The notes under the pieces were generated by a model. The model was not told where the DNA came from, did not search any database, and worked only from the letters and a program-made list of their open reading frames with translations. Both the position numbers and the translations under genes were made by a program. Of a stretch of DNA of 64,000 nt, positions 2,844-16,243 are shown piece by piece. Positions within the stretch are counted from its first letter, which is position 1, and each line of letters opens with the position of its first letter. Source of the DNA: Microcaldota archaeon (GTDB lineage Archaea; Micrarchaeota; Micrarchaeia; Micrarchaeales; Micrarchaeaceae); the NCBI GenBank assembly GCA_021818545.1, contig JAKATX010000013.1:1-64000 (forward strand), given 5' to 3'.

Positions 2844-4109
2844 TCATGATTCCAGCGCTTTCTTTATCTTATCGATGTCCCCATCTACTTCTATCGGAGG
2901 ATTCATAAATGCGGGCCTTATTTTCTTTAGTTCATTTGTGTGGTATCCCACAGTAGTGATTGGATCCTTTAGTATATTTCCAGTAAGTATGCACACTACA
3001 TTTTGTCCTTCTTTTATTACGCCGTTCTTCCTAAGCTTCTTGGCCCCTGCCAAAGACGCTGCTGAGGCCGGTTCGCAACCTATCCCGCTTGAGTCTATCA
3101 TGGCCTTTGCATCTAGTATCTGGTTGTCAGAAACTTTCTCTACCACTCCATTTGTCATCTTTATTGCCTTGATAGCCTTCTTCCAACTTACAGGGTTGCC
3201 TATTTTTATAGCACTGGCTATTGTATCAGGATTGTCAACCCTAACTAATTCATGCAATCCACTTTTCCATAGCTTGTAAAATGGAGCAGCGCCCTCGGAT
3301 TGTATGGCGGCTATCCTAGGCATTTTCTCTATTAACCCGAACTCTTTGAGCTCAGAAAGCGCTTTTCCCATTGCAGCGGTATTTCCTAGATTTCCAGCAG
3401 GCAGGACAATCCAGTCTGGGCTATCCCACTTCATCTGCTGTATGAGTTCAAATGTTATTGATTTCTGCCCTTCTATCCGCCATGGATTTACCGAATTCAA
3501 TATGTACATTTTAAGGCTAGATGCAGCTTCTTGTATAAGGCGCATCGAGTCATCGAAGTTGCCTTTTACTTGTACGACTTTAGCTCCGTAAGCAATTGTC
3601 TGTGCGAGTTTTCCGTAAGCTATCTCGCCGGACGGTATAAACACAACGGCCTTCAACCCAGCGAGCGCGGCATATGATGCGAGGGATGCAGATGTATTTC
3701 CAGTGGAAGCGCAGCAGACTATTTTCGCACCGATTCTGACAGCCTCTGAAACGCCCACAGTCATTCCCCTGTCCTTGAATGATCCTGTCGGATTTTCGCC
3801 TTCGTGCTTCATGTAAAGATTTTTTATCCCTGCATATTCCGATGTCTTTGTGTGGGAGTATAGCCTTGTGTTGCCCTCCCACCTTGACACTATGCACTTG
3901 TTTGGAATGGATTTGTGCACTAGTTCCTTGAATAACCATACTCCACTGTCATACGGAAAACCCCTTGCGGCAGCTCTTTTGTCCAGTTCGCGTACGGATA
4001 TATTGATATGATCCAAACGCACCTCTAGCAATCCGCCACATTCGCACTGCCATATATCCGCAGGGCGGTATTCGGCTCCGCAGTCTATGCATACGAGTGA
4101 GGTAGACAT
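2844..4109 (-). CDS. thrC: Threonine synthase
   Basis: A PLP enzyme of 421 residues that converts O-phosphohomoserine to threonine, the last step of the pathway. The PLP lysine is K112 in the GSFKDRG motif, and the phosphate-binding loop reads PAGNLGNTAAMG near residue 240. The N terminus has a zinc-ribbon-like Cys set (C7, C10, C22, C24), common in archaeal threonine synthases. It is the last gene of the ask-asd-hom-thrB-thrC operon, 4 bp after thrB. Length is typical. Confidence 0.93.
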   Translation of the reverse strand: MSTSLVCIDCGAEYRPADIWQCECGGLLEVRLDHINISVRELDKRAAARGFPYDSGVWLFKELVHKSIPNKCIVSRWEGNTRLYSHTKTSEYAGIKNLYMKHEGENPTGSFKDRGMTVGVSEAVRIGAKIVCCASTGNTSASLASYAALAGLKAVVFIPSGEIAYGKLAQTIAYGAKVVQVKGNFDDSMRLIQEAASSLKMYILNSVNPWRIEGQKSITFELIQQMKWDSPDWIVLPAGNLGNTAAMGKALSELKEFGLIEKMPRIAAIQSEGAAPFYKLWKSGLHELVRVDNPDTIASAIKIGNPVSWKKAIKAIKMTNGVVEKVSDNQILDAKAMIDSSGIGCEPASAASLAGAKKLRKNGVIKEGQNVVCILTGNILKDPITTVGYHTNELKKIRPAFMNPPIEVDGDIDKIKKALES

Positions 4110-4113
4110 TCGA

Positions 4114-5034
4114 TCAACCCAATGTTGTTGCGCCTGAATTGGATATGCTGCTTAATATTATTTCATGCTTTTCCTTGAATACCTGATCTATTTGTGCTAT
4201 CAGGTCATTCTTTGAATTGTTTGACCGGTCTCCGAGAATCAATACTGCTGGGCCGGCGCCGCTTGCCGCAACACCGTATCCGAGGCTGCTTGCAATCCTT
4301 TTTATTTCATCGAAATGCTTTAGTATGCCAGCCTTTGCCCTTGCGGGCTCTATAATCTTGTCGTCCATCGATTTTATAAGCATCTCTACGTTGCCATCAA
4401 GCATTGAACATATCAATGAGGATAGGCACTGGAGATTATCCTGTGATGAAATCCGGCTAACCATGTCAGGCAGCACACTTCTTGCAGCTTTTGTCGATAT
4501 TTTGCCCTCTTCTGGTGCTATTATTATAGCATCTAGTGTTTTTGGCGCATTTATTTTCTTTATTTTGATAGGGTTTCTTGAAAATACTATGGTGAAACCG
4601 CCAAATATGGCAGGCGTGACATTATCATAATGTGGCGTTCCAGCTGCGATTTGCTCCCCGAGCGCGGCGTATTTGACTATTGATTCGTCATCAAGTTTTA
4701 GATCGAACAGTTTGTCTATCGCATATGCGATTCCTGCTGCACTTGCTGCGCTGCTGCCCATGCCGCCCCCTGGCCTTATCTGCTTGTTTATCATTATGTC
4801 CAACGGCCCGAACCCGAAATCTTGCCTCATTTTGCTTACTACCGGACCGCATGTATTTTCTGACATGTTTTCGGGAACGCTGTATTTCCCGATTGACTTT
4901 ATCGTATCTGCTCCTGATACTGAAACTTCCATTTCATCAAAAGGACGCTCCAGAGCGATTCCACATATGTCAAAACCTGAACCAAGATTGGCCGACGTTG
5001 CAGGTACCTTGATCTTTATTTTATCCATGTCCAC
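4114..5034 (-). CDS. thrB: Homoserine kinase
   Basis: A GHMP-family kinase of 306 residues that phosphorylates homoserine with ATP. The opening VPATSANLGSGFD motif and the glycine-rich ATP loop RPGGGMGSSAASA (residues 87-99) are diagnostic, and the C-terminal GASGAGPAVL-type motif appears as AASGAGPAVLILG. The start overlaps the end of hom by 14 bp, pointing to translational coupling. Its product is the substrate of the adjacent thrC product. Confidence 0.93.
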   Translation of the reverse strand: MDMDKIKIKVPATSANLGSGFDICGIALERPFDEMEVSVSGADTIKSIGKYSVPENMSENTCGPVVSKMRQDFGFGPLDIMINKQIRPGGGMGSSAASAAGIAYAIDKLFDLKLDDESIVKYAALGEQIAAGTPHYDNVTPAIFGGFTIVFSRNPIKIKKINAPKTLDAIIIAPEEGKISTKAARSVLPDMVSRISSQDNLQCLSSLICSMLDGNVEMLIKSMDDKIIEPARAKAGILKHFDEIKRIASSLGYGVAASGAGPAVLILGDRSNNSKNDLIAQIDQVFKEKHEIILSSISNSGATTLG

Positions 5035-6085
5035 ACCTCCTAAGGCATTCCAGCGCCATTTTTAAGTTGCCAGCTACGCGACTTGCAGTGGCGTCCCCAC
5101 CGGCCCCTGGACCGGATAGGAATATACTGAATTCGCTGCCGTTTGCCTTGCCTTTTATCTCTATTGCGTTGTTTACGCCTTCTATTTTAGCGAATTGATC
5201 GTTCGAATCTAATATTGTTGGGGCTACTGAAGCAGTAATTCTGTCGCCTTTCCTTTCAATGCTGCATATGAGCTTAACACTCTTCCGATTTTTCTTGAGT
5301 TTCCTGATGTATTCGCTTTTTATCCCATCAATCCCGATGTGACCCTCCGATATGCCTTTCAAACGCACTTGGCCTACGCTTATTTTCCTGCCGAATAGCC
5401 TATAACATAAGCCAACTGCTTTAAGTGCGGAGTCGTGGCCCTTTATGTCATATTCGTAGTTGGCTTCGGCGTAGCCCATGCGCATCGCTTCGGACAACGC
5501 CCCATCGAATTGCTTCTCTTCTAATAGCCCTAGAATATAGTTGCTGGAACCGTTCAGTATGGCCCTGACACTGGATATCTTTATGTTCATTCCATTCATA
5601 ATCTCAAATACTGGTATGCCACCCATGACGCTAGGTCCATCCAGGAACAATGCACCATGTTTCTTTGCTGCATTCTCTATTTCCCTTAATGCGCTTACGG
5701 ATCTGAGATGATTTTTTGAAGATACAACCACATTTATCCCGTTCTCCAGAGCGCGGACAACTTCCTGGAAACCGGGCTCTCCTGTTTCTATATTAGTTGG
5801 GGTCAGATCGATGAGTATGTCAGGTGTTGCTATGTCAATCGCGCCTTTCATGTTTATGTTCCTGAATCCGGCAAATCCTGAGAGGTTTTTATATGTGGTT
5901 TTATGATCAAGCAGGCTTTTGGCTTTGATGCCATTCTTGTTTATTACTGCACCACTGCTATCTATCGCAGCAACGAGCAACATATCAATGTCTTTATCTG
6001 CGGCCCATCTTTCTAGCTGACCCCACATTTTAAGCAGACCCTTCCCAACGTTGCCCAGACCAGCGATTGCTATCTTAGATTTCAT
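5021..6085 (-). CDS. hom: Homoserine dehydrogenase
   Basis: A 354-residue NAD(P)-dependent enzyme reducing aspartate semialdehyde to homoserine. The N-terminal Rossmann loop is GLGNVGKGLL, and the catalytic domain contains LNGSSNYILGLLEE and AEANYEYDIKGHDSALK, with the key Asp and Lys of the family. The protein ends after the catalytic fold and has no C-terminal ACT domain, so allosteric threonine inhibition is not expected. It overlaps asd by 4 bp and thrB by 14 bp. Confidence 0.92.
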   Translation of the reverse strand: MKSKIAIAGLGNVGKGLLKMWGQLERWAADKDIDMLLVAAIDSSGAVINKNGIKAKSLLDHKTTYKNLSGFAGFRNINMKGAIDIATPDILIDLTPTNIETGEPGFQEVVRALENGINVVVSSKNHLRSVSALREIENAAKKHGALFLDGPSVMGGIPVFEIMNGMNIKISSVRAILNGSSNYILGLLEEKQFDGALSEAMRMGYAEANYEYDIKGHDSALKAVGLCYRLFGRKISVGQVRLKGISEGHIGIDGIKSEYIRKLKKNRKSVKLICSIERKGDRITASVAPTILDSNDQFAKIEGVNNAIEIKGKANGSEFSIFLSGPGAGGDATASRVAGNLKMALECLRRCGHG

Positions 6086-7104
6086 ATATAGCCCTTTGAA
6101 ACAAGTAATTCGGCGTCCAGTATGCCGACCCCTGCGGCACCGCGGACTAGATTGTCACCAACTACCTGATACGCGATACTCTTGCTATTCAAGCCTTTCC
6201 TTATCCTGCCTACTGTGACAGCCATGCCGCTAGCATCAAGGTGCGGCTGTGGCCTATCTTGCTCGCCTCTCACTATGATTGGATGCTTCAGCCCGGAAGG
6301 CAGGTTTGGCAGACCGACAAAATCCGTTAACTCGCGCCTGGCGCATTCTGGGTCTATCCTTTCCCCGAATTCTATATGGACGGATAGCGTATGCCCGTTG
6401 AGCACAGGCACCCTATTGCATGAGCCGAATATTTCCATGCTGCTCATTTTTATGCTGCTGCCCGTGAATTTGCCGAATATCTTCCTTTGCTCCATTTCCA
6501 ACTTTTCTTCCTCCCCCGGAATATATGGTAGGATATTCCCAATCGCTTCCAGCGATGCCAACCCTGGATGGCCGGCGCCGCTTAATGCCTGCATTGATGT
6601 GGCTATTATCCTCTTTATTTTGAATTTGTCAATTAACGGTTTTAGGGTGAGGGCTAGTATTATGGTAGTGCAGTTCGGATCGCACACAAGGCCGCCGCTT
6701 ATCGATTCCCTTTGCTTGTCCAGCATTACTATGTGCTCTGGGTTTACTTCAGGCACGATAAGAGGCACCTTCCTGTCCATGCGATTTGCGCTTGCCTTGC
6801 TTATTACAAGCTTCCCATCTTTCGCCAGCTTCCATTCCAAGGTCTTTGCGCTCTCCGATGGCAATGCTGAAAACACAACTTTGGAATCAATCCCATCGCC
6901 TAGCCCCTTGAGTTCTATGTCCTTTGCCTGACTTTTTATATCGGAAAAAACCGGCCTTGCCACCTCTGCAAATGGCTTTCCTTTTGATTTTTCTGATGCG
7001 ACTAGCTCGTTTATGCGGAAGTATGGGTGATTTTCCAGCAGCTCTATAAACTTCTGGCCGACTAGGCCGGTCGCACCTAGTATCGCTATGGGAATCTTTT
7101 TCAT
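6082..7104 (-). CDS. asd: Aspartate-semialdehyde dehydrogenase
   Basis: A 340-residue enzyme reducing aspartyl phosphate with NADPH. It opens with the nucleotide loop ILGATGLVGQKF, and the catalytic cysteine is C145 in DPNCTTIIL. A conserved SGAGHPGL stretch and a His in the HTLSVHIEF region also fit the archaeal/fungal branch of the family. It overlaps ask by 4 bp at the start and hom by 4 bp at the end, within the threonine operon. Confidence 0.93.
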   Translation of the reverse strand: MKKIPIAILGATGLVGQKFIELLENHPYFRINELVASEKSKGKPFAEVARPVFSDIKSQAKDIELKGLGDGIDSKVVFSALPSESAKTLEWKLAKDGKLVISKASANRMDRKVPLIVPEVNPEHIVMLDKQRESISGGLVCDPNCTTIILALTLKPLIDKFKIKRIIATSMQALSGAGHPGLASLEAIGNILPYIPGEEEKLEMEQRKIFGKFTGSSIKMSSMEIFGSCNRVPVLNGHTLSVHIEFGERIDPECARRELTDFVGLPNLPSGLKHPIIVRGEQDRPQPHLDASGMAVTVGRIRKGLNSKSIAYQVVGDNLVRGAAGVGILDAELLVSKGYI

Positions 7105-7871
7105 AGGCTTTCACTGGCATATATCACAGTACCGCTTTTATGAATGTTTTTGTCCTTATATGAAACGACGCGTGCTATTGTAGGAGCATTGAAGTAGGAT
7201 AATGCCTTCAATTGTATTATGGAGTAGGGCTTTTCGTATTTCCTTTGGCCATTGCTGCAAATGCGCATCAACTGGCCCAGAGACATCGAATCAACCTTCT
7301 TTCCATCTAGATACACGCCGTCCACATCGCTTACCTTTATTATTTCGTCAGCCGCTATGCACTTGGCTATCAGGAATGCGCTAAGGTCGCTGGAGCCCCT
7401 GCCCATGGTGCTTATCTCATTCTTCGCAGTCTTTCCCACAAAGCCAGGTATCACTATAACACGGCCGCCCCTTAACAATGGCACCAATTCTTTCCTGCAT
7501 ATCGCCCTTACCTTGTTTTCTAATGGGTTGGCATCGCCAAAATTTGAATCCGTTATTATTGGCCAAGATGGGCTCATAGGGTCGAAAAGTGTGTATTTTA
7601 TGCCGAGGTTTTCCAATTCAGCGGCAAGAAGCGACGCGCTTATTATTTCGCCGTAACTTAGAGCATGATCCCACGCTTTAGGATTGATTTTGCTGCCCAT
7701 ATCATTGAGTATGCCGATCAACGATGACGTCATATTGCCGGGTGCGGATACTACCACTATCATCTCGTTTGACTCTTGCTCCTTTGCTATCAATTTGGCG
7801 GCACGCCTTATCAGCTTGCCTGACGAAAGGCTCTTGCCGCCTATCTTAAGCACTATTCGCTTTTTTTGCAT
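7101..7871 (-). CDS. ask: Aspartokinase, catalytic domain only
   Basis: This amino-acid kinase begins the threonine pathway by phosphorylating aspartate. The first motif is VLKIGGKSL, followed by VVVSAPGNMTS and a GRGSSDLSAF motif near the middle. An upstream in-frame ATG exists at 7898, but the ATG at 7871 is chosen because a GGTG sits 8 nt before it. With 256 residues the protein has only the kinase fold. The regulatory ACT domains found in most aspartokinases are absent, so control by threonine would have to occur elsewhere; see the leader at 7966-8031. It is the first gene of the operon. Confidence 0.88.
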   Translation of the reverse strand: MQKKRIVLKIGGKSLSSGKLIRRAAKLIAKEQESNEMIVVVSAPGNMTSSLIGILNDMGSKINPKAWDHALSYGEIISASLLAAELENLGIKYTLFDPMSPSWPIITDSNFGDANPLENKVRAICRKELVPLLRGGRVIVIPGFVGKTAKNEISTMGRGSSDLSAFLIAKCIAADEIIKVSDVDGVYLDGKKVDSMSLGQLMRICSNGQRKYEKPYSIIQLKALSYFNAPTIARVVSYKDKNIHKSGTVIYASESL

Positions 7872-7921: not shown

Positions 7922-8021
7922 GCTAAATCTCAGAAAAACGAACAGAATTTTTTTATAACATTTTTCGGAGATCCAGCTAGCTAAGACTAGCATGTTGTAG
8001 CTGTTGTTTCTAAATCTCCGG
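7922..8021 (-). promoter_or_regulatory. Foldable leader RNA of the thr operon with two alternative pairings
   Basis: Read on the minus strand, CGGAGAT (8020-8014) can pair with ATCTCCG (7972-7966). Inside it, CAGCTA (8003-7998) pairs with TAGCTG (7979-7974), and GCTA (7991-7988) with TAGC (7983-7980) around loop GTCT. The 3' arm has a competing partner: GCTGGATCTC (7977-7968) can pair over 10 positions, including G-U pairs, with GAGATTTAGC (7931-7922), just after a run of five T. The two folds exclude each other, and the threonine codons lie in the 5' arm region. This is what an attenuator needs, although no classical hairpin plus long U-run is present. Confidence 0.5.
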
Positions 8022-8031
8022 CTAATGCCAT
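7987..8031 (-). CDS. Putative threonine-rich leader peptide of the thr operon
   Basis: A 14-codon reading frame, MALAGDLETTATTC, ends in TAG at 7987-7989. Four of 14 codons are Thr, all ACA, in two pairs. The ATG lies 26 bp downstream of a strong TATA box (8054-8061), so the transcript would begin at or next to the start codon, the usual leaderless arrangement in archaea. The frame overlaps a foldable RNA and lies 116 bp before ask. This resembles the logic of a bacterial thr attenuator, but no such system is assumed known here. The call is inference from position, codon content and structure. Confidence 0.5.
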   Translation of the reverse strand: MALAGDLETTATTC

Positions 8032-8053
8032 GGTCATATTATTGCCACATTGC

Positions 8054-8061
8054 TTTATAAA
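8054..8061 (-). promoter_or_regulatory. TATA box of the threonine operon leader
   Basis: TTTATAAA on the minus strand, preceded by a purine run (CAAAAAG) resembling a BRE, is centred 26 bp before the leader-peptide ATG at 8031. Confidence 0.6.
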
Positions 8062-8092: not shown

Positions 8093-9028
8093 TTACTTGC
8101 CGTGCTTTTTCTCTGTATCCAAGAGCTTGACTGCCGCCGAATAGGGATCGACCCTGCCTTTTAGCATATTTGACATTGCATGCGGGTTTCTTGCCAAAAG
8201 CCCATCGACACGCCTTGATAGTAGTTCCTTTGCAATCCTGTTTACTTCCATACTGAAAGCCCGCTCTATGAAAGATTTCGTGTTTATAGATTTTTCATGC
8301 TTCTCTATCATGCCTGCGAGATCCTTTATGCCTTCCTTCTTCGTGCAACTGGTGTTTGCAATCATTTTTGATTGGGGCCCTGAAAGCGTTGATAAGTATG
8401 CAGTTATCGCCCTCTTCGCTTGGTAAGCACCCTCCAAGTCCGACTTGTTGATTACGAATATGTCAGCAATCTCCATAGTACCCGCCTTCATGGCTTGGAT
8501 CTCGTCCCCTAACCCTGGTGCAAGCACCAAAAGTATGGTAGATGCTATGTCCAGTATGTCAACATCCGCCTGTCCTGCCCCAACGGATTCTACTATAACT
8601 GTATCGAAGCCGGCGCACGATAGCGTTATAAGCGCGCTCATTATGGAAGCCGCAAGACCGCCCTTTGCGCCCCTTGTAGCTATGCTGCGCATGAATATGT
8701 TGGAAGAAGAAACAGTCTCTTCCATCCTTATCCTATTGCCGAGGAAAGAACCGCCGCTAAAAGGGCTTGATGCATCTATTGCAATTATCCCAAGTTTATT
8801 GCCGTGGGATGCGATTATTGGGGCGAGTTGGGCTATTAGGCTGCTCTTGCCGCACCCAGGCGGGCCGGTAATGCCTATTACGCGCGGTATCCTGTTTGGA
8901 TCGTATATGCCTTTTATCAGCTTGGAGAACGCCTCGGGCTCATCCTCTGCTATGCTGATGCAGCGGGCTATGCACCCTCGGTCACCTCGCTTTAGGCCAT
9001 CGGCTAGAGCCTTCATCTTTTTGTCCAC
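8093..9028 (-). CDS. meaB: MeaB/ArgK-type G-protein chaperone of methylmalonyl-CoA mutase
   Basis: A 311-residue GTPase. The P-loop is GPPGCGKSS (K61), followed by IDASSPFSGGSFLGNRIRM typical of the MeaB/ArgK group, the VESVGAGQADVDI switch and NKSD for guanine specificity. Family members load and protect the cobalamin cofactor of methylmalonyl-CoA mutase. Here the gene lies 4 bp after the B12-binding subunit gene, supporting that role over the older ArgK transport-kinase annotation. Its stop is 32 bp from the TATA box of the next operon. Confidence 0.9.
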   Translation of the reverse strand: MDKKMKALADGLKRGDRGCIARCISIAEDEPEAFSKLIKGIYDPNRIPRVIGITGPPGCGKSSLIAQLAPIIASHGNKLGIIAIDASSPFSGGSFLGNRIRMEETVSSSNIFMRSIATRGAKGGLAASIMSALITLSCAGFDTVIVESVGAGQADVDILDIASTILLVLAPGLGDEIQAMKAGTMEIADIFVINKSDLEGAYQAKRAITAYLSTLSGPQSKMIANTSCTKKEGIKDLAGMIEKHEKSINTKSFIERAFSMEVNRIAKELLSRRVDGLLARNPHAMSNMLKGRVDPYSAAVKLLDTEKKHGK

Positions 9029-9032
9029 GCTT

Positions 9033-9470
9033 TCACCATTTCTTGGATCTGGACTCGCGCGCCCTCTTCTTTATGTGGTCTATTATATCTGACATAGGAG
9101 TGCCCGGTCCATAGTTGCCGCTCACACCCATCTTCTCCAACATCGGCTTGTCCCCTGCTGGTATTATGCCGCCTCCAACCACCGCTATCCCTTCTGCATG
9201 GTTTTTCTTAAGCAACTCCATGACTTTCTTGAATATTGTCATATGTGAGCCATTGAGCAGACTTATGGCTATGACATCCACGTCCTCGTCTATTGCTATC
9301 CGCACCATCTCTTCCGGAGTCGGGAGCAAGCCCGGATATATGACCTCCATGCCTGCATCCCTGAAAGCTCTGGCTAACACATAGACGCCGCGATCATGCC
9401 CATCTATTGCCGGCTTCGCAAGAAGCACCCTTATAGGCCTAGATGATTTTTGGTTCCTTCCACTCGCCAT
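9033..9470 (-). CDS. mcmB: Methylmalonyl-CoA mutase, B12-binding small subunit
   Basis: A cobalamin-binding domain protein of 145 residues. The DGHDRG motif supplies the His that ligates cobalt, and SLLNGSHM and VGGGIIP are the other B12-fold signatures. The frame can be extended upstream to a TTG at 9485, but a GGAGG lies 7 nt before the ATG at 9470, so that start is preferred. The gene overlaps the end of the large subunit by 32 bp in another frame, suggesting coupled translation of the two subunits. Confidence 0.9.
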   Translation of the reverse strand: MASGRNQKSSRPIRVLLAKPAIDGHDRGVYVLARAFRDAGMEVIYPGLLPTPEEMVRIAIDEDVDVIAISLLNGSHMTIFKKVMELLKKNHAEGIAVVGGGIIPAGDKPMLEKMGVSGNYGPGTPMSDIIDHIKKRARESRSKKW

Positions 9471-11139
9471 AGACATCCCTCCCAACTTTGACTATCTCCC
9501 CTATTGTAGCGTAAGCGCTAACGGCATCCATCACATACGGCATTAGGTTCTCATTTTTAGATTCCATTGCCTTGCGCAGCCTTTTTAGGCTAGCCCTCAC
9601 TTTGGCCACATTCCTTGTCTTTTTAACTTGGGCCAGTCTGCGCCTCTGCGTGCGCTGCGCTGCCATGCTGATTTTTAGCGTATTTATAGGGCGTTCCTTT
9701 TCATCTCTGTACTTATTCACACCTACCATCACATCTTCGCCCCTTTCCAGCCTCATCTGCCGCTCATATGACGCATTGGCTATCTGGTCCTGCAGGTAGC
9801 CTTTCTTTATCGCTTCTAGTACGCCCCCCATCTCGTCTATCTTGTGGAAATATTCGTATGCATCGCGCTCCATCTTATCGGTGAGCGCCTCTAGGTAATA
9901 GGAGCCGCCTAGCGGGTCCACTATGTCATTCACACGCGTTTCCTCCGCTATTACCTGTTGTGTCCTAAGCGCCACTTTTGCTGCATCCTCTGTAGGGAGG
10001 GCAAGCGCCTCGTCATATGAGTTAGTGTGTATGCTCTGTGCACCACCGAGCACCGCGTAAAGCGCCTCAAGGGCGGTCCTCGAGATATTATTGAGCGGCT
10101 GCTGCCATGTTAAGGTATAACCGGATGTCTGGGCATGGAACCTCAATTTGAGGGACTTTGGATTAAGGGCGCCGTACTTTTCCTTTAACACGGTGGCCCA
10201 TATCCTCCTTGCTGCGCGGAACTTCGCTATCTCCTCGAACATTTCCATAGAGGAGTCGAAGAAGAACGATATCCTTGGGGCGAATTCATCAACCTTCAAG
10301 CCAGCACTTAAGCCCATCTCCACGTAATGAAAACCGTCAGCGAGCGTGAACGCCAACTCTTGCACTGCAGTGGAGCCTGCCTCCCTTATGTGATAACCAG
10401 ACACGCTTATGAAGTTCCACTTTGGCATCTTCTTCACTGAGTAAAGCATCATGTCCTTTATCATCCTCAGGTGCGCTTCCGGGGGATAGAACCATTCCTT
10501 CTGCGCGATATATTCCTTCAGTATGTCTGCTTGAAGCGTACCAGCCAGGGAGCTTGACTTTACGCCGCGCTTCTGAGCTGCGACTATGTACATAGCGAAT
10601 AGTATTATGGCAGGCGCGTTTATCGTCATTGACGTGCTTACGCTGCCCAACGGAATTCCATCGAACAGCACCTCCATATCCTTCAGGGAAGAAACGTTTA
10701 CGCCGCACTTGCCTATCTCGCCATCCGCGCGTGCATTGTCACAGTCTATGCCATATAGCGTAGGCTCGTCGAATGCTATGCTGAGTCCCGTCTCGCCATG
10801 CTTAAGTAGGTATTTCAATCTGGCGTTCGTGTCTTCAGGGGTGCCGAAGCCGGAGAACATCCTCATTGTCCATGGCTTACCGACGTACATGTTCGGGTAT
10901 ATGCCGCGTGTGAAAGGGTAGACACCAGGCATGGAGTCGTCTTTTTCTAAGGCATATTCACTTGTGTAGACTATCCTGCCCCTGCCATCTACATGCTTTG
11001 AACCTTCCCATGGCTCCAGTATTTTGTTTTCCCATCCCAAGTACCTTTTGCTCTCATGCTTTGTATCAGATTGGATAAGTTTGAGTTTTTTTGCCCAGAA
11101 AGAAACGCCGTTTGATTTGCTTTTGTGCTTTTCCATCAT
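9439..11139 (-). CDS. mcmA: Methylmalonyl-CoA mutase, large catalytic subunit
   Basis: Interconverts succinyl-CoA and (R)-methylmalonyl-CoA using adenosylcobalamin bound by the neighbouring small subunit. The signature region YPFTRGIYPNMYVGKPW followed by FGTPEDTNARLKYLL and GLSIAFDEPT is characteristic of the substrate-binding TIM barrel. A reading frame extends 25 codons further upstream, but that would overlap the CoxG-like gene. The tandem ATGs at 11139 and 11136 leave a 22-bp gap and are preferred. Length of about 566 residues fits archaeal split mutases. It operates with meaB downstream. Confidence 0.92.
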   Translation of the reverse strand: MMEKHKSKSNGVSFWAKKLKLIQSDTKHESKRYLGWENKILEPWEGSKHVDGRGRIVYTSEYALEKDDSMPGVYPFTRGIYPNMYVGKPWTMRMFSGFGTPEDTNARLKYLLKHGETGLSIAFDEPTLYGIDCDNARADGEIGKCGVNVSSLKDMEVLFDGIPLGSVSTSMTINAPAIILFAMYIVAAQKRGVKSSSLAGTLQADILKEYIAQKEWFYPPEAHLRMIKDMMLYSVKKMPKWNFISVSGYHIREAGSTAVQELAFTLADGFHYVEMGLSAGLKVDEFAPRISFFFDSSMEMFEEIAKFRAARRIWATVLKEKYGALNPKSLKLRFHAQTSGYTLTWQQPLNNISRTALEALYAVLGGAQSIHTNSYDEALALPTEDAAKVALRTQQVIAEETRVNDIVDPLGGSYYLEALTDKMERDAYEYFHKIDEMGGVLEAIKKGYLQDQIANASYERQMRLERGEDVMVGVNKYRDEKERPINTLKISMAAQRTQRRRLAQVKKTRNVAKVRASLKRLRKAMESKNENLMPYVMDAVSAYATIGEIVKVGRDVYGEWKEPKII

Positions 11140-11161
11140 ATCAAGAATAGTGATTGTAATT

Positions 11162-11671
11162 TTAGGTCGGGCTTTGCGGCTGCTGGGGTGCGGTGCCGCT
11201 ACCCTCCGCAGCACTGGGCTGCTTATTGGCGCCCTCTATATTAGATTTGAGATTGATTATTATCTGCTCTATCTTGGAATCGCTCACTTTCCTTATTATG
11301 CCAGCACCGACTCCGCTTATCAAGCCGCTCAATTCGAATGTAGATGACCAGATGGCGCTGGTGGTGCCCGGGGATTTCTCGGAAATGTCAAGAGCGAGTT
11401 TTATCTTTGCCGTGCTCCCTATGCCACGCCCATCTAGCTCATATGCTATGTGGTTACTCTGCTGATCCACTATCGCGCCTTTCATGTCGAATAAGCCGCG
11501 CACCATCCCTATGCCGACCTTTACCTTAAGATTGAAGTTCTTGCTGTCTATTTCAGCAAAACCCTCGCTGTCCGGTATACAGGACGCTACTTCGCGCGTA
11601 TTTGACAGGAAATTCATTGTAGCGGTTGGTTCCGCACTTATTTCGATATTGCCATCCAAGTCTATTTGCAT
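11162..11671 (-). CDS. CoxG-like SRPBCC-fold protein
   Basis: A protein of 169 residues from the ATG at 11671; an upstream GTG at 11680 is less likely. It reads as a CoxG/START-like hydrophobic-ligand-binding fold: ISAEPTATMNFLSN at the N terminus, then CIPDSEGF, KVKVGIGMVRGLFDMKG and a C-terminal helix region. The last 20 residues are Gln, Pro and Ser rich and probably disordered. It is the first gene of the methylmalonyl-CoA mutase operon, 22 bp before mcmA. CoxG proteins are best known beside CO-dehydrogenase-type genes, so this partner is unusual. The function here is unknown. Confidence 0.7.
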   Translation of the reverse strand: MQIDLDGNIEISAEPTATMNFLSNTREVASCIPDSEGFAEIDSKNFNLKVKVGIGMVRGLFDMKGAIVDQQSNHIAYELDGRGIGSTAKIKLALDISEKSPGTTSAIWSSTFELSGLISGVGAGIIRKVSDSKIEQIIINLKSNIEGANKQPSAAEGSGTAPQQPQSPT

Positions 11672-16129: not shown

Positions 16130-16243
16130 GCCAAACAGCAACATGATTTCCCGCCCAAAGGCAGTACACACATATCGTGAGCAGTCTTAGCTTCCGAGTT
16201 CGGAATGGGATCGGGCGTTACCCTGCTCCTATTACCGTTTGGC
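16130..16243 (-). rRNA. rrf: 5S ribosomal RNA
   Basis: The reverse complement begins GCCAAACGG and ends GTTTGGC, and these ends pair to form helix I. The interior holds the conserved CCCGATCCCATTCCGAACTCGG segment (beginning near 16216) and the TGGGCGGGAA region of the 3' half. Length is 114 nt. The gene stands alone with no 16S, 23S or tRNA beside it, consistent with unlinked rRNA genes as in some Thermoplasma-like and ARMAN genomes. A TATA box lies 25 bp before the predicted 5' end. Confidence 0.93.

Follow-up and report, generated by a model that had tools for sequence, protein, structure and literature searches.

The window, a stretch of 64,000 nucleotides from a Micrarchaeota archaeon (genome G000), carries on its minus strand a thr operon in the order ask-asd-hom-thrB-thrC, preceded by a short leader open reading frame (ORF), a TATA box, and three RNA segments with the predicted ability to pair in two exclusive ways (Table 1). 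The aspartokinase encoded by the first gene is a kinase domain only, and with Pfam at E values up to 1 no ACT domain was matched in it or in the homoserine dehydrogenase, which agrees with an earlier note on this DNA that had described both enzymes as lacking such domains.

Table 1. Features of the leader region and thr operon in the window
Feature	Position	Strand	Remark
TATA box TTTATAAA	8054..8061	-	first base 30 nt before leader ATG
Leader ORF MALAGDLETTATTC plus stop	7987..8031	-	14 codons in 6/6 genomes
Putative control codons ACA ACA GCT ACA ACA (codons 9-13)	7993..8007	-	
Segment 1 (8030-8024 and 8020-8010), codons 1-3 and 4-8, 5' arm of predicted hairpin 1:2	8010..8030	-	
Segment 2 (GCTGGATCTCCGAAAAATGTTA), common to both exclusive pairings	7956..7977	-	
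Segment 3, 3' arm of predicted hairpin 2:3, with U-tract (five U, 7938-7934) and GAGATTTAGC	7922..7940	-	
ask, ACT-less aspartate kinase	7104..7871	-	start 7871 from alignment; 7898 also possible
asd, aspartate-semialdehyde dehydrogenase	6082..7104	-	
hom, homoserine dehydrogenase without ACT domain	5021..6085	-	
thrB, homoserine kinase	4114..5034	-	
thrC, threonine synthase	2844..4109	-	

The leader ORF reads ATG GCA TTA GCC GGA GAT TTA GAA ACA ACA GCT ACA ACA TGC TAG, with the stop at 7989-7987. The earlier note had placed here a TATA box, a 14-codon frame beginning about 26 bp behind it, and four ACA threonine codons in two pairs, and all of these were recovered: the box is a perfect archaeal one, the ATG lies 26.5 bp from its center, and the threonine codons do stand as two pairs. 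At this spacing the transcript of the leader ORF is probably leaderless or nearly so. A second in-frame ATG at 8037, two codons upstream, would add one threonine codon (ACC).

Threonine content was compared with chance in dinucleotide shuffles of a 220-nt region, counting ORFs of 8 to 30 codons, and none of 5,000 shuffles gave an ORF with as many threonines as the leader taken from the upstream ATG (5 Thr). The same test applied to the leader of a relative from the same genus (G001, see below) gave 17 of 5,000. Moreover, among 247 short ORFs that begin 22 to 40 nt behind a TATA-like box with at least 7/8 matching positions, in the set of loci used for this count, leaders included, only one other ORF has at least four threonines in at most 16 codons besides the leaders of G000 (counted with two starts) and G001.

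Genes for MeaB, a B12-binding protein, and methylmalonyl-CoA mutase lie directly upstream of the leader (8093-11214, minus strand). MeaB/mutase-like genes also occur near the leader in two of the related genomes described below (G002 and G003), and they are out of view in G001, whose contig stops about 1.7 kb upstream. Elsewhere in the window, a 5S rRNA gene (16130-16242, minus strand) is the sole Rfam match at gathering score, and ARAGORN found no tRNA genes in the window.

Related leaders and their threonine codons

At a threshold of 1e-20 the window aspartokinase matches three of the 164 genomes of its order (its own, G001, and G050) and five of the 301 genomes of the phylum, the extra two (G254 and G227) having full-length enzymes that are only 34-36% identical to it. 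G001, Candidatus Micrarchaeota YP2.bin58, belongs to the same genus; its aspartokinase is 62% identical to that of the window, and its operon contains the same five genes behind a different upstream gene, with a 14-codon leader, MAFVRATGTTATTR, that has the same TTATT run as the window. In G050 (YP3.bin123, same order) the operon is ask-asd only, no thrB was matched at a cut-off of 1e-15 in a genome estimated to be 93% complete, and the 14-codon leader, MALYRDLEAMQDKL, has no threonine.

A covariance model, R1, was built from these three leaders and run against the 164 genomes of the order using Infernal with stricter filters. The alignments A1, A4, A5, and A6 misplace part of the G001 sequence after the stop, and R1 was built from A6. 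Besides the three source leaders, which it recovered, R1 gave three new strong matches, each directly before thr genes. In G002 (E 1.2e-17) the leader MGLSGDLGATATTC is followed by what remains of ask, a short N-terminal relic, and then by asd-hom-thrB-thrC; in G003 (E 9.9e-14) the leader MALVGGLSTTATTR, in which codon 13 is ACG instead of ACA, precedes an operon without ask, asd-hom-thrB-thrC; and in G068 (E 4.3e-5), which belongs to another family, the leader MKFEGNFATAYTAC stands directly before thrB-thrC on a 5.7-kb contig, within which ask is not in view. Because R1 is blind to genes, the finding that all three new strong matches precede threonine genes provides independent support; R1 also scores primary sequence, so that threonine codons in its matches are partly expected, which does not hold for the gene context. 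A further match in G031 (E 0.0077) was rejected since it falls inside a gene that we take to be KaiC-like.

The earlier note had proposed that alignment with relatives should reveal a conserved frame, threonine codons, and stems. The frame is kept in all five relatives and has a fixed length of 14 codons in all six genomes, while the stretch from the stop to segment 2 varies in length. A TATA-like box lies 29 to 32 nt before the ATG in every leader, matching 8/8 positions in G000, G002, and G003, 7/8 in G050 and G068, and 6/8 in G001. Threonine codons are conserved in four of the five relatives; the expectation failed in the fifth, G050, where the operon lacks thr genes. Where the operon includes thrB and thrC, as in five genomes, the leader contains 2 to 5 threonine codons (4 in G000, 5 in G001, 3 in G002, 4 in G003, and 2 in G068), and the leader before ask-asd alone contains none. 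Their positions recur as well, at codons 9, 10, 12, and 13 in G000, G001 (which also has one at codon 7), and G003, at 10, 12, and 13 in G002, and at 9 and 12 in G068, where the two codons taken by themselves do not reach significance (P 0.12).

ACA accounts for 16 of the 18 threonine codons in the leaders, compared with 240 of 729 in the 41 window ORFs of at least 200 amino acids (binomial P 1.4e-6, a value that ignores the relatedness of the leaders, which are not independent). The residues other than threonine vary: when every genome is compared with every other, 124 of the differing codon pairs are nonsynonymous and 23 synonymous. This variability would fit a peptide that is made only to be counted, and the sequences give no evidence of selection on the peptide. 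An argument from synonymous changes between G000 and G050, which both read MAL--DLE, was dropped because the positions concerned are also paired in hairpin 1:2. Computation establishes the anatomy of these leaders, their conservation, and their association with threonine genes. In the five thr operons the predicted short ORF contains codons for the amino acid that the operon makes.

The gene context in G002 and G003 also bears on the reason for having such a leader. The earlier note had suggested that the leader offsets missing allosteric control, and the absence of ACT domains from the window enzymes stands; as the whole reason, missing allostery of the aspartokinase falls short, because G002 and G003 keep the leader with ask decayed or gone and another aspartokinase nearby. 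ACT domains were found in the second aspartokinase of G002, the sole copy examined. In G002 the leader has outlived the gene it preceded. The relic there occupies positions 14413-14676 of L169, between leader and asd, and the ACT-domain aspartokinase lies about 7 kb off, beside an apparent transposase gene (4816-5709, identified by eye). A divergent gene stands beside the leader both in G002 (L169, 14833-15894) and in G003 (L170, 12894-13991), and it reads to us like threonine aldolase.

Two predicted alternative pairings of the leader RNA

The earlier note had described two mutually exclusive pairings of an ATCTCC segment, and its coordinates and pairings proved correct: CGGAGAT (8020-8014) and GAGATTTAGC (7931-7922) can each pair with that segment. 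The first pairing is wider than it had been described, comprising 18 pairs and including the start-codon region, and the alternative partner contains the U-tract. Hairpin 1:2, as predicted, joins leader nucleotides 2-8 and 12-22 to the segment after the stop. Its plan of 7 bp, a 3x3 loop, and 11 bp is found in G000 and G050 and in a close variant in G001 and G003, and the nascent fold in G002 and G068 has essentially the inner part only. The alternative, 2:3, joins segment 2 to the stretch that holds the U-tract. Among the relatives, 1:2 is kept in all five at least in part, as the earlier note would have it, and 2:3 in four, the exception being G068; a few of the compensatory changes that it had also called for are present.

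On a six-sequence MAFFT alignment, 87.5% of the cells of 1:2 can pair, against at most 49.5% when the pairing is slid out of register, and the corresponding figures for 2:3 are 81.4% and at most 59.2%. Three pairs of 1:2 are changed on both sides, and 2:3 slid by +1 has six pairs with changes on both sides versus three in the real register; with six sequences the observed values were reached by 20 to 136 of 500 shuffles for 1:2 and by 10 to 79 of 500 for 2:3, and the shuffle controls of pair counts were only modestly exceeded. As for stability, the z scores of the 1:2 fold are -4.17 in G000, -2.72 in G001, -4.85 in G050, -2.89 in G002, -4.09 in G003, and -1.60 in G068, and those of 2:3, which is not unusually stable in G001 or G050, are -4.77, -0.72, +0.10, -5.00, -1.80, and -1.97 in the same order. 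For G000, none of 200 shuffles was as stable in either fold.

A ribosome waiting at codon 9 was mimicked by hiding nucleotides 1-37, a footprint length assumed from bacterial ribosomes. In this masked fold segment 2 pairs with every base of a run of four or five U in G000, G001, G002, G003, and G050. A second run of four U in G003 is mostly unpaired, and in G001 2:3 forms on a longer stretch and is absent on one that ends just after segment 3. In G068 the longest U-runs have three U and are almost unpaired, so that hiding of a U-tract is unsupported there. When nucleotide 83 onward was folded alone, as in the 1:2 state, no base of these U-runs was paired in G001, G002, or G050, and pairing was partial in G000 (3 of 5) and G003 (2 of 4).

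The free minimum-energy fold is 2:3 and not 1:2 in G000 and G002, and it is also not 1:2 in G068. In G000, 2:3 wins even when a ribosome occupies the stop codon, and 1:2 would therefore need to win by forming first. Prediction and comparison together thus give two exclusive pairings, one of which could be blocked by a ribosome on the ORF, with 2:3 unsupported in G068.

A putative ribosome-mediated switch and its alternatives

We consider it likely that the leader works as a ribosome-mediated attenuator and controls the thr operon in a single lineage of Micrarchaeota. The frame, threonine codons, and pairings kept in relatives support the translation-linked reading that the earlier note had offered; from them we infer a leaderless start, translation, stalling, termination as the output, and the sign of the response. 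When threonine is sufficient, the ribosome would finish the leader ORF and leave, 1:2 would form as the RNA emerges, and the U-tract would remain single-stranded, so that RNA polymerase would be terminated at the open tract before ask, probably with FttA/aCPSF1. When charged tRNA-Thr, mainly the ACA reader, runs short, the ribosome would halt at codons 9-13 and cover segment 1, whereupon 2:3 would form and hide the U-tract, and the operon would be transcribed. The sign of the switch follows from the consideration that a shortage must open the operon. It is open U-tracts that the archaeal terminator reads: the parts of the two papers covered here describe aCPSF1 as binding terminator U-tracts through its KH domains (PMC8716108) and the FttA terminator as having U-rich nascent RNA optimally at -30 to -36 (PMC11616081).

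The same sensing of threonine might act on translation of the operon mRNA, on its stability, or on the coupling of ribosome and polymerase, rather than on termination at the U-tract. Segment 2 is complementary to a run of four or five U in five of the six leaders, and in G000, G001, and G050 the leader stops 98 to 158 nt short of the start chosen for the first gene, which leaves room for a terminator; both points argue against a different output, which we regard as unlikely while giving it real weight, since 1:2 covers the 5' end from nucleotide 2 and could keep a leaderless message from being translated, the longest run of U has only 3 to 5 bases, and the run in G068 is not hidden. In addition, control of coupling by FttA is itself only a proposal in the covered part of PMC11616081.

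Explanations that dispense with the sensing of threonine by a ribosome fare worse. A threonine riboswitch or a protein-binding RNA acting without translation, with the ORF as an incidental feature, would account for a 1:2 hairpin that is stable and conserved and for the stretch ACAACAGCYACAACA, which is conserved as DNA in G000 and G001. Such an RNA is nonetheless improbable given the 14-codon ORF with its ATG at leaderless distance in all six genomes, the retention of threonine through a change from ACA to ACG in G003, two threonine codons in matching positions in G068 despite its divergence, the absence of threonine where thr genes are missing, and the lack of a match between the leaders and any Rfam family. 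It is very improbable that the ORF arose by chance in an ordinary intergenic region with the ask promoter at a second TATA-like stretch: that stretch, which reads TTATAAAAA in the window (about 7958-7950) and has TTTTATATA or TTATAATC as its counterpart in G002 and G003, overlaps segment 2 and is not TATA-like in G001, G050, or G068, and chance already fails as an account of the whole pattern because ORF, pairings, and gene context are conserved. Finally, translation of the ORF is plausible and might yield a functional micropeptide acting in trans, a reading that we think hardly credible, as the residues other than threonine vary widely between genomes.

The proposed attenuator resembles known bacterial systems in several respects. 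Threonine sensing through stalled ribosomes is a trick best known from bacteria, where ribosome-mediated attenuators control amino acid operons, as in E. coli thrL, trpL, hisL, and pheL. Like these, the leaders described here have a short ORF with cognate codons directly before a biosynthetic operon, exclusive pairings of which one overlaps the ORF, and a U-tract before the first gene. Unlike these, they occur in archaea, place their ATG behind a TATA box at the spacing of a leaderless transcript, and match no Rfam family. Moreover, whereas the bacterial arrangement is a GC hairpin followed by U, here the putative on-state pairing would hide the U-tract in a stem and the other would leave it open. 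T-box leaders likewise sense tRNA charging for amino acid genes and differ in binding tRNA directly without an ORF. A threonine leader peptide before thr genes is also the content of the Rfam threonine operon leader, presumably Thr_leader (RF00506), and neither it nor a T-box, a riboswitch, or any other Rfam family was matched in the leaders (window at gathering score, six leader loci at E up to 1); the sole weak match in the six loci was to a lncRNA model (E 0.25) elsewhere in L163.

Termination at U-tracts by FttA/aCPSF1, the machinery proposed for the off state, is described as a general terminator in the covered parts of PMC8716108 and PMC11616081, and among the literature matches listed none concerned its use under leader-peptide control. 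According to the part covered of PMC8448881, attenuation and antitermination were not known in archaea as of 2021, and the string "attenuat" is absent from the covered text of PMC8116511, which deals with coupling in archaea. Titles and abstracts among the matches listed contained no archaeal leader-peptide attenuator, within open-licence PMC, which leaves most subscription papers and all bioRxiv preprints outside. If the proposed switch is real, amino acid supply would be read via a stalled ribosome in a domain with eukaryote-like transcription machinery, tight coupling of transcription and translation in DPANN archaea would be implied, and the leader would offer a compact reporter for whether nascent RNA structure controls FttA.

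Distribution and candidate leaders of other kinds

Of 80 chosen genomes (72 with an aspartokinase match and 8 others), 10 have a thrB match above the cut-off and 7 others a weaker one. Five of the 10 have the leader (G000, G001, G002, G003, and G068), and R1 at E values up to 1 found none in the thrB loci of the other five (G043, G260, G276, G277, and G279, where the locus ends at a contig edge); the device therefore looks like one lineage's solution and not a Micrarchaeota-wide rule. Upstream of thrB in G043, G276, and G277, the 230 to 400 nt inspected hold no short ORF with more than two threonines, and in G260 the start of thrB and the ORF before it are at most 2 nt apart. Within the window genome, the segment 2 motif with up to three mismatches occurs only at the site itself and in one match with two mismatches, antisense to a transporter-like gene.

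No convincing cognate leader was seen in the 47 of 55 loci with full-length aspartokinases (TIGR00657) that were parsed, those of G002 and G003 being left out of this set. Relatives of the window aspartokinase were absent from viral contigs; in genome contigs none was found by single sequence and four by alignment, comprising two already known by name and two distant loci, in which ask follows an apparent shikimate kinase gene and no leader was found.

Archaeal aspartate semialdehyde feeds aromatic synthesis, so phenylalanine and tyrosine residues would be cognate in a leader before genes of that pathway. Short ORFs rich in Phe and Tyr (and Trp), with U-runs after the stop, occur at L026 and L004 (G254), L158 (G043), and L005 (G227): MRNAKVCISGNSFFFSFSYY in G254 precedes ask-asd-aroA'-aroB' together with other aromatic genes, among them those for prephenate dehydratase and an aminotransferase and one that resembles prephenate dehydrogenase; MEIAKASLRSCRSASYFSSFSYGSY in G043 precedes aroA'-aroB'; and MLNLPNIAWRFFYTWFSCSYC in G227 precedes ask. 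The TATA-like box lies 43, 39, and 32 nt before the ATG in G254, G043, and G227, respectively, only the last being at leaderless distance. These ORFs were chosen after being seen, and their observed aromatic counts were reached in 44, 250, and 14 of 5,000 shuffles, in the same order. Shuffles matched the local similarity between them 2 times in 1,000 for G254 and G043, 42 times for G254 and G227, and 226 times for G227 and G043. Thirteen of the 247 TATA-linked ORFs, besides those of G227 and G043, have an equal Phe/Tyr content (at least 5 and 20%), the folds of the candidates do not repeat the thr plan, and no leader was seen by eye at the aroA'-aroB' loci of G227, G262, and G259. This evidence is weaker than that for the thr leaders, and it suggests Phe/Tyr leaders before aromatic genes as possible attenuators and as a lead to follow.

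Our broadest proposal is that the thr leader is the first archaeal ribosome-mediated attenuator, in which stalling on a leaderless peptide would sequester a U-tract read by FttA, and that it is one of a wider Micrarchaeota set including Phe/Tyr(/Trp) leaders before ask, asd, or aromatic genes (G254, G043, and G227). We advance it tentatively, as the chances seem to us to lie somewhat against it in this full form.

Leaders for histidine and tryptophan were sought at 30 of 42 HisG places and 30 of 41 TrpE-family places, within 1.5 kb upstream of the domain match, and no ORF there reached the cut-off of three His or Trp codons and 12%; an ORF of 35 codons with four His at L040 just missed it. That ORF (G216) and one at L032 (G187) are alike, both lying upstream of HisG, starting with M[IL]TTKL, sharing SRHL, and having 4 and 2 His, respectively. 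Similar short ORFs of the form MN[GN]DWR[RK][IV]EPD, with one Trp, are found about 650 bp before the TrpE match at L063, L069, and L083 (G191, G194, and G188). In addition, the 18-mer CCGCATCTCTGGCAGATG recurs in two genomes, at L014 and L017 in G050 and at L016, L019, L020, and L021 in G004, and five of these six places are no farther than about 1.1 kb from the end of a contig; it perhaps belongs to a mobile or multicopy element.
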